A stretch of DNA of 64,000 bases from positions 259,105-323,104 of the forward strand of contig JAAXKQ010000003.1 in NCBI GenBank assembly GCA_025612245.1. Reading direction: 5' to 3'. Source of the DNA: Ignavibacteria bacterium. GTDB lineage: Bacteria > Bacteroidota > Ignavibacteria > Ignavibacteriales > SURF-24. Positions 8,963 through 11,536 of the stretch are shown here, in pieces. A model generated the notes under the pieces. It saw only the letters and a list, made by a program, of their open reading frames with translations, was not told where the DNA came from and did not search any database. Every line of letters begins with the position of its first letter. The first letter of the stretch is position 1. The position numbers and the translations under genes are program-made.

Positions 8963-9041
<79 letters not shown>

Positions 9042-9821: not shown

Positions 9822-11501
9822 TCACATGTATGCCTGCCTTAATCTTTCGTGCTCCTCGGCAGTAAATATTTCGAACTCTTCTGGCATTATCTTTTCCACG
9901 TCGCCAAAATAATCCCCTTCTGACCCCTCTTTCTGCGTTATGGATTTTATCCTGGCAGAGGTGGCCACCTCCAGGCGGTCTACAATTATGTTTCTGCCGT
10001 CGCCAGGGTCAATTTTTCCCTCAATCAGGTAAGGACCCATGGAAAGCGTGAGCTCGGCATAACGGTTATAAGTCTCTGGAAACAGGATAGCTTCAAATGT
10101 ACCCGTCAGGTCCTCAAGCGAAAGAAATTTCATTATCTCTCCTTTGCGCGTCCTTATGCGCTTTGAAGACATATACCAGCCGCCCATCTTAACCCTGCGT
10201 CCTTTTAAGTTATCCATGTCCTCCGCCCTGATGATCGAGGGCCCCCCGAGGAGCTCGCTGAAAAACTCCAGCGGATGGCGGCTTACCATATAGCCGAAGG
10301 TTTCATATTCTATTGCGCAAGCCTCCTCAACCGTGTAACTTACATCGGTTATTACTTCACTTTCGAGCTTGAGAGTCTCGCCGGCAAAAAGGCTGCTCAT
10401 GCTGAGAGTCTTTCTGTAGGACATATAGACGTCCAGAAGGCGCATGAGCGTGGGACGCGTCTTCTTAAAGCAGTCCATGGCTCCGCAGCGTATCAAAAGC
10501 GATGTTTCCTCATAGCCCACGCTTGTCCTTGACAGAAAGTCGGAAAGGCTCACGTACTCCCCGTTTCTGTTTCTTTCCTTTACTATCTCGCTCATCGTGG
10601 GCACTGAGAGGTTCTTAATTGCCATGAGGCCTATGCGGACCTCCTTATCCTTACCCGTGTAGTCGCGCTCGCTATTGTTCACACACGGAAGCAGCACCTT
10701 AAGCCCCATGCGCTTGCATTCCTGTATATACACGGCCGCCGAATAGAAGCCTCCCCCGTTGCTCAATACTGAAGCCATAAACTCGGCGGGGTAATACACC
10801 TTAAGAAAAGCCACCTGGAAGGAAAGCAGCGCAAAGGAGGCGCTGTGGGCCTTGCAGAAAGCATAGCCCGCAAAAGATTCAATCTGCCGCCAGAGCTCGC
10901 GCGCTGCCGCTTCACTGATCCCTTTGGATTTGCACGACGTGAAAAACTTCTCCTCGAGCTGTTCCATGGCACTGCGTGAACGCATCTTGCCGCTCATTGC
11001 ACGCCTGAGTATGTCGGCTTCCTCCAGTGAAAGCCCTGCTATGTGGTGGGCTACTTTTAAGACGTCTTCCTGATAGATCATTATGCCGTAGGTTTCGCTC
11101 AGGTATTCTTTCATCTGGGGCAATAAATACTTCCTTTTTGAGGGATCCTTGTGCCTCAGGATGAATTCCTGCATCATTCCGCTTTCGGCAACGCCGGGAC
11201 GTATGATGGAGCTTGCTGCCGTAAGCATTTCAAAGGTATCCACCGAGAGCTTTTTCAGGAGTGAGCGCATTCCGGGAGATTCTATGTAAAAACAGCCTAT
11301 GGTGTTGCCTTCCCTGATGAGTTTTTTTACCCCCTCATCGTTAAAGAGCATCTTATAGTCGTAAATATCAAATTTTACCCTTGCGGTCTTGCGCGGAACC
11401 GGGGTATATATCTGCCTGAGCTTTCCCCGGCTAAAGCGGGTTTCAGGCAGCGTATAGCTCTTCAGGTCTATATATGCTGTTTCGGAATTAGTAATTTTCA
11501 T
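9822..11501 (-). CDS. DnaE-like protein: C-terminal half of DNA polymerase III alpha, catalytic palm absent
   Basis: About 559 residues matching only the C-terminal half of bacterial DnaE. Recognisable similarity begins near residue 46 and is clear at NTIGCFYIESPGM (E. coli counterpart TTAVFQLES), then RPG, YQEDVLKVA, LRRAMSGK, FAGYAFCKAHSASFALLSFQ and YPAEFMA of the fingers. A helix-hairpin-helix region and an OB fold (GRRVKMGGWYMSSKRIRTR onward) follow. The PHP domain, thumb and palm with the three catalytic Asp are missing; a VKFD tetrapeptide at 42-45 resembles the third Asp site but the other two are gone. ATG at 11501 is chosen over a GTG at 11528, which lies inside a palindrome. Motifs match Bacteroidota error-prone DnaE rather than replicative DnaE. 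It cannot polymerise alone; it may be a remnant or an accessory protein. Confidence 0.82.
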   Translation of the reverse strand: MKITNSETAYIDLKSYTLPETRFSRGKLRQIYTPVPRKTARVKFDIYDYKMLFNDEGVKKLIREGNTIGCFYIESPGMRSLLKKLSVDTFEMLTAASSIIRPGVAESGMMQEFILRHKDPSKRKYLLPQMKEYLSETYGIMIYQEDVLKVAHHIAGLSLEEADILRRAMSGKMRSRSAMEQLEEKFFTSCKSKGISEAAARELWRQIESFAGYAFCKAHSASFALLSFQVAFLKVYYPAEFMASVLSNGGGFYSAAVYIQECKRMGLKVLLPCVNNSERDYTGKDKEVRIGLMAIKNLSVPTMSEIVKERNRNGEYVSLSDFLSRTSVGYEETSLLIRCGAMDCFKKTRPTLMRLLDVYMSYRKTLSMSSLFAGETLKLESEVITDVSYTVEEACAIEYETFGYMVSRHPLEFFSELLGGPSIIRAEDMDNLKGRRVKMGGWYMSSKRIRTRKGEIMKFLSLEDLTGTFEAILFPETYNRYAELTLSMGPYLIEGKIDPGDGRNIIVDRLEVATSARIKSITQKEGSEGDYFGDVEKIMPEEFEIFTAEEHERLRQAYM

Positions 11502-11504
11502 TGC

Positions 11505-11536
11505 TATAAATAGTGTACGTATGTACACTATTTATA
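11505..11536. promoter_or_regulatory. 32-bp palindromic operator at the start of the DnaE-like gene
   Basis: Two perfect 14-base arms, TATAAATAGTGTAC and GTACACTATTTATA, are separated by GTAT. The element ends four bases before the ATG of the DnaE-like gene. Its core GTAC-N4-GTAC resembles the core of cyanobacterial LexA boxes, and SOS control would suit an error-prone-type DnaE derivative, but the LexA site of this lineage is not known to me. A TATAAT hexamer lies at 11533-11538 on the plus strand. The octamer ATGTACAC of its right half recurs at 11718-11725. Confidence 0.6.

Follow-up and report, generated by a model that had tools for sequence, protein, structure and literature searches.

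The 64,000-nucleotide stretch of Ignavibacteria bacterium DNA analyzed here (the window, on contig JAAXKQ010000003.1) carries a gene, dnaE2-C, that encodes only the C-terminal half of a C-family DNA polymerase. Its frame is open for 559 amino acids (aa) from the ATG at 11501, and a further in-frame GTG at 11528 lies within a palindrome upstream of this start codon. A Pfam scan identified fingers and helix-hairpin-helix (HhH) domains and, below the curated cutoff, an OB fold (Table 1); neither a PHP domain nor the DNA_pol3_alpha palm was found in the protein, so the open reading frame (ORF) is intact and lacks both, as described in the original prediction. Full-length NCBIfam DnaE models likewise cover it by their second half only (e.g., residues 585-1051 of 1146 in PRK05673). 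The fingers motifs agree with those of intact DnaE2 and DnaE1. The MSSLF motif, whose L371 and F372 are invariant or nearly so in orthologs, lies approximately where DnaE has its internal clamp-binding motif, which suggests a role in clamp binding. The tau-binding C-terminal domain (CTD) is absent, as the protein stops ~50 aa past the OB region in a tail modeled with low confidence; DnaE2 enzymes without a CTD are described in a 2013 survey of C-family polymerases (PMC3919608).

Table 1. Features of the dnaE2-C locus, in window coordinates.
Feature	Position	Strand	Basis
dnaE2-C, fingers + HhH + OB half of a probable split error-prone DnaE2-type polymerase	9822..11501	-	ORF, Pfam, 46-ortholog alignment, PDB profile match, fold match
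N-terminal extension of dnaE2-C, ~41 aa, not in intact DnaE2	11379..11501	-	Alignments; AlphaFold pLDDT ~39-56 at aa 1-30
Fingers domain, aa 51-194; motifs TIGCFYIESPGMR, YQEDVL, RRAMSGK	10920..11351	-	PF17657 (DNA_pol3 finger), E 1.5e-39
HhH region, aa 266-351	10449..10706	-	PF14579 (HHH_6), E 8.5e-22
MSSLF motif, aa 368-372	10386..10400	-	Ortholog alignments; order-wide consensus YNDLF
OB-fold region, aa 436-512	9966..10196	-	Weak PF01336 match at aa 438-512, under curated cutoff; OB folds retrieved by fold search
SOS/LexA-type operator palindrome; core TAGTGTACATACGTACACTA at 11511-11530	11505..11536		Ortholog conservation; similar boxes twice upstream of lexA1

The catalytic half is encoded in a lexA2-dinB operon on another contig

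A search of the whole source genome for the palm domain returned two loci only. One is the intact replicative dnaE1 (contig C44, 1156 aa), and the other is a 560-aa ORF on contig C15 (L009:721-2403; palm domain E 3.5e-80) that carries the PHP and palm domains and all three catalytic aspartates. Both the complementary N-terminal ORF and the separate intact dnaE that had been proposed as search targets are thus present in the same genome. The GRGS, PD-D-DF, and K-D residues of the catalytic core are invariant across 24 N-half orthologs. The PHP metal site of the N-half appears partly degenerate, reading DxN where DnaE1 has DHG. A degenerate PHP metal site is reported for most DnaE2 enzymes in the 2013 survey (PMC3919608). 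The suspected likeness to the error-prone DnaE of Bacteroidota was borne out, with 39-45% identity to intact Bacteroidia DnaE2 for the C-half and ~30-34% for the N-half.

The N-half gene is the last in an operon with the order lexA2-DUF72-dinB-dnaE2(N), on a different contig from the C-half. The Y-family protein of this operon is DinB-like (381 aa) and apparently active, with its SIDE catalytic motif intact. No ImuB C-terminal extension was seen on it, and the operon contains no imuA (a genome-wide imuA search was not made). At L141:6553-8080 on C15, the dinB-dnaE2(N) operon starts with the genes for a DUF72 protein and for another LexA, which is divergent; DUF72 proteins recur in such cassettes across the Ignavibacteriales and may function in damage tolerance.

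The halves meet in a loop between palm and fingers

When mapped onto DnaE chains in the PDB, the N-half profile extends up to residue 578 of Escherichia coli alpha and residue 639 of the Taq enzyme, and the C-half profile begins at residues 591 and 642, respectively. Alignment of the junction with 13 intact Bacteroidia DnaE2 proteins placed the break in a short loop that joins the final palm helix to the fingers, with no polymerase residue lost and only tails gained. As judged from these alignments, the two halves are exactly complementary, and the C-family fold (PHP, palm with three Asp, fingers, HhH, and OB) would be complete only from both halves jointly. The folds predicted by AlphaFold for the C-half and N-half both match DnaE crystal structures (mean predicted local distance difference test [pLDDT] of 77 for the C-half and 74 for the N-half, the latter modeled from the L022 ortholog). 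The palm end of the lone N-half model (aa 465-559) has low confidence, which may reflect either the absent partner or a shallow alignment.

The added tails are variable, measuring ~7-55 aa in the N-half and ~20-50 aa at the head of the C-half. The N-terminal extension of dnaE2-C varies in sequence, with recurring YxLP and IYxPIPR motifs, and is a candidate contact region for the N-half. A [VIL][FYI]x[ILV] motif in the N-half tail was considered as a docking peptide; since only 21/48 tails have it, it does not explain docking in general.

Split inteins are classically found in DnaE, so the halves could conceivably be joined posttranslationally by one, as in cyanobacterial DnaE. However, neither half matched an intein family, the junction tails are short and variable and contain no intein blocks or motifs, and the break falls in the palm-fingers loop. 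Intein-mediated joining is accordingly very improbable. The 2013 survey mentions split polymerase sequences from cyanobacteria (PMC3919608).

Both halves are conserved and co-occur across the Ignavibacteriales

The same C-half form was found in >60 named Ignavibacterial contigs at 57 to 73% identity, and the 46 full-length orthologs that we aligned have the same start region and keep the conserved motifs. (The sister genome G005 seems to have an internal deletion in this gene, but this is a run of N in its assembly.) For the closest pair, from the same genus, the ratios of nonsynonymous to synonymous substitution (dN/dS), approximate because dS is ~1.2, were 0.067 for the C-half, 0.085 for the N-half, 0.097 for dinB, and 0.080 for lexA2, values that point to purifying selection on both halves. 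The tree is compatible with a single origin of the split, with its deepest forks unresolved.

These data bear on the first of the three readings originally offered, namely, that the gene is a recently 5'-truncated dnaE2; it would then be a decaying relic that lost its promoter and N terminus. The catalytic half is indeed missing from the gene, and intact homologues exist in Bacteroidia. Nevertheless, the order-wide conservation and purifying selection, together with the conserved operator described below, refute truncation, which retains at most a slight residual chance. A broken gene resulting from an assembly or gene-calling artifact could also be suspected, given that the source genome is MAG-like (resembling a metagenome-assembled genome) and in multiple contigs. 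Since the same split occurs in six single-contig genomes (G003, G020, G024, G026, G030, and G065), where the halves are mostly far apart, this explanation is likewise refuted and has virtually no probability left.

Among 116 Ignavibacteriales genomes, with a half counted as present at E below 1e-80 and a single fragment at a contig edge in G080 included on the basis of its identity, 73 encode both halves, 5 only the C-half, 5 only the N-half, and 33 neither (Fisher P of 1.9e-18, uncorrected for phylogeny, although several genera show repeated joint absence). Genomes with neither half recur inside genera that otherwise hold both. Most single halves lie at contig ends or in incomplete MAGs: 4/5 C-only cases end ~650 bp or less from the end of a contig, and contig ends truncate two N-only cases. 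In G033, which has no C-half, dinB is followed by an N-half remnant comprising the first 102 residues only (L224:2183-3640); this locus is a decaying cassette.

The arrangement of the two genes varies widely. lexA2, DUF72, dinB, and both halves form one cassette in L056, L058, L061, and L142; the C-half precedes the N-half in L058, L059, L061, and L062 and follows it in L142 and L056; and the two are convergent in L022, L052, and others. The C-half is divergent from dinB-N in Melioribacter-type genomes and adjoins yajQ in many other genomes, including in the source window, while many further genomes have the two halves close together in several orders and orientations. These varied gene orders imply that the halves were placed independently yet kept together.

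Outside the order, those sampled genomes of the phylum that gave a close match hold only intact relatives of ~1000 aa; we take these genomes to belong to the Bacteroidia. dinB adjoins the intact DnaE2 in 9/13 fetched relatives. An apparently unsplit relative in a Planctomycetales MAG (L070:417-3295) has 50% identity to the C-half, and its frame may be broken close to the end; it might be the closest unsplit relative, the product of a transfer, or contamination, and its position in the tree is unsure.

LexA-type operators precede the C-half gene and the N-half operon

Directly upstream of the dnaE2-C ATG is the palindrome TATAAATAGTGTAC-GTAT-GTACACTATTTATA, with 14-bp arms, which had been noticed as operator-like. 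Allowing ≤3 mismatches at fixed consensus positions just upstream of the start, we found the consensus TAGTG-N2-CA-N2-TG-N2-CACTA at 64/75 C-half promoters, 34 of which have a perfect copy. Because shuffled sequences are expected to give 0.25, the conservation of this core at orthologous starts puts the palindrome far beyond chance. The exact palindrome has one perfect site genome-wide; related sites were found through a relaxed, ortholog-derived consensus, which in the source genome identified two boxes at lexA1, one at the C-half, and one before a gene for a basic protein, along with a few probable chance sites. The box before the basic protein gene, at C17:69768, is of the LexA1 type and lies upstream of L207:3904-4905, which encodes a very Lys/Ala-rich protein of 333 aa with no Pfam match.

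lexA2 has a distinct box, TACCATACA-NN-TGTATGGTA, that is also found upstream of the C-half in L054 and L143. Of the 11 C-halves without the first type of box, 5 are inside lexA2/N cassettes, and 7 either lie in such cassettes or bear a lexA2-type box. Upstream of unlinked, dinB-less N-halves, LexA boxes were mostly not found. Taken together, the operator conservation, the class of box at lexA1, and the location of the N-half in a lexA2 operon indicate, at the level of sequence, that the split DnaE2 is likely under LexA/SOS regulation, and its expression is probably inducible by DNA damage. Since the source organism and a sister genome have a LexA1-type operator at the C-half and a LexA2-type operator at the N-half, the split might act as an AND gate, such that the mutagenic polymerase would assemble only once LexA1 and LexA2 had both been inactivated. 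We consider this two-key control a tentative and rather doubtful idea.

A two-subunit error-prone DnaE2 is the best explanation

Neither a relic nor an artifact, the C-half is conserved as one part of a naturally split DnaE2. Our preferred interpretation, to which we assign a probability of roughly 0.88, is that the two genes encode a two-subunit, noncovalent, SOS-induced error-prone DnaE2 that is split between palm and fingers and is intein free. DNA damage would lead to RecA-stimulated LexA cleavage and derepression of both half genes. The halves would then associate noncovalently, perhaps through the short N-half tail and the added 30-41-aa head of the C-half, with the N-half providing catalysis and the C-half the OB fold, the clamp motif, and the fingers that bind nucleotide and DNA. 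The heterodimer, together with DinB and the clamp, would carry out mutagenic translesion synthesis. The sequences themselves show the complementarity, co-inheritance, shared cassettes, SOS-type operators, and selection, whereas we infer heterodimer formation, polymerase activity, and the error-prone translesion role.

Along with the phylogenetic caveat on the co-occurrence test, several observations weigh against this interpretation. The mirror-tree correlation of the halves is only 0.60. The N-half occurs without the C-half in G037 (99% complete) and G035 (98%), and the C-half without the N-half in G084 (93%); these three are perhaps real exceptions to the pairing. In the source genome, the halves differ in operator, with a LexA1-type box at the C-half and a LexA2-type box at the N operon, and the assignment of the former to LexA1 rests on the lexA1 promoter and conservation. 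Finally, recA was not noticed among the box matches in the source genome, in which no dedicated check for recA was made.

Another of the original readings was that the C-half is a stand-alone accessory factor, which would bind the clamp or template and compete with or modulate other polymerases independently of the N-half. It would accommodate the retention of the fingers, HhH, clamp-like motif, and OB fold, the genomes that apparently have the C-half without the N-half, and the difference in operators within the source genome. However, most C-only cases lie at contig ends, the two halves share cassettes, and the dNTP-site fingers motifs RRAMSGK and YQEDV are conserved as in active polymerases. 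Because the C-half co-occurs so tightly with the catalytic half, a stand-alone competitor is unlikely, and a dominant-negative factor is disfavored. The same-genome partner, co-occurrence, and cassettes instead strongly support the remaining reading, half of a split polymerase.

Relation to known polymerases

To our knowledge, bacterial C-family polymerases are regarded as single chains, except for the intein-joined cyanobacterial DnaE, and a literature search, whose coverage did not extend to subscription papers, returned no published account of a split DnaE2. Like cyanobacterial DnaE, the polymerase described here is divided over two genes, but the former is replicative and covalently rejoined by an intein, whereas the latter is an intein-free accessory polymerase. 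The family B polymerase of Methanothermobacter is naturally composed of two polypeptides that act as a complex without an intein, although it belongs to another polymerase family and another domain of life. DnaE2 of the ImuC type, similarly a second copy beside an intact DnaE1, is a single chain of ~1000-1100 aa rather than two polypeptides of ~560 aa.

Among described systems, the closest is the Bacteroidetes PolY2 and DnaE2 pair, a mutasome that resembles imuA-imuB-dnaE2 and whose Y-family polymerase is active (PMC6511836). Both systems have dinB beside a DnaE2-type polymerase and SOS-type regulation. Here, in contrast, DnaE2 is two proteins from two often unlinked genes, accompanied by a DUF72 gene and by LexA paralogs of the canonical winged-helix type; SOS control in Bacteroidetes uses other repressors and motifs (PMC8565304). 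The imuA-imuB-dnaE2 (ImuABC) cassettes also combine a LexA-controlled, CTD-less error-prone DnaE2 with a Y-family gene, to which some bacteria add lexA2. They are defined by ImuA and a catalytically dead ImuB with a C-terminal extension, whereas the Y-family protein here is DinB-like with an intact SIDE motif, and DnaE2 is split.

That the palm-fingers split is stable throughout the order suggests that catalysis and the grip on DNA and nucleotide can come from different proteins, each with its own gene and its own regulation. The split also offers a natural system in which to study how the domains of a polymerase come together and whether splitting restrains a mutator. For annotation, a survey that leaves out fragments would overlook a split enzyme or count half of it. 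The 2013 survey excluded fragments whose active site was not intact, and its available text lists one Ignavibacteria genome as having DnaE1 and DnaE2, with no mention there of a split (PMC3919608).

Near yajQ and the C-half, the window also contains a tRNA-Pro (cgg) gene at 8966-9041 on the minus strand.
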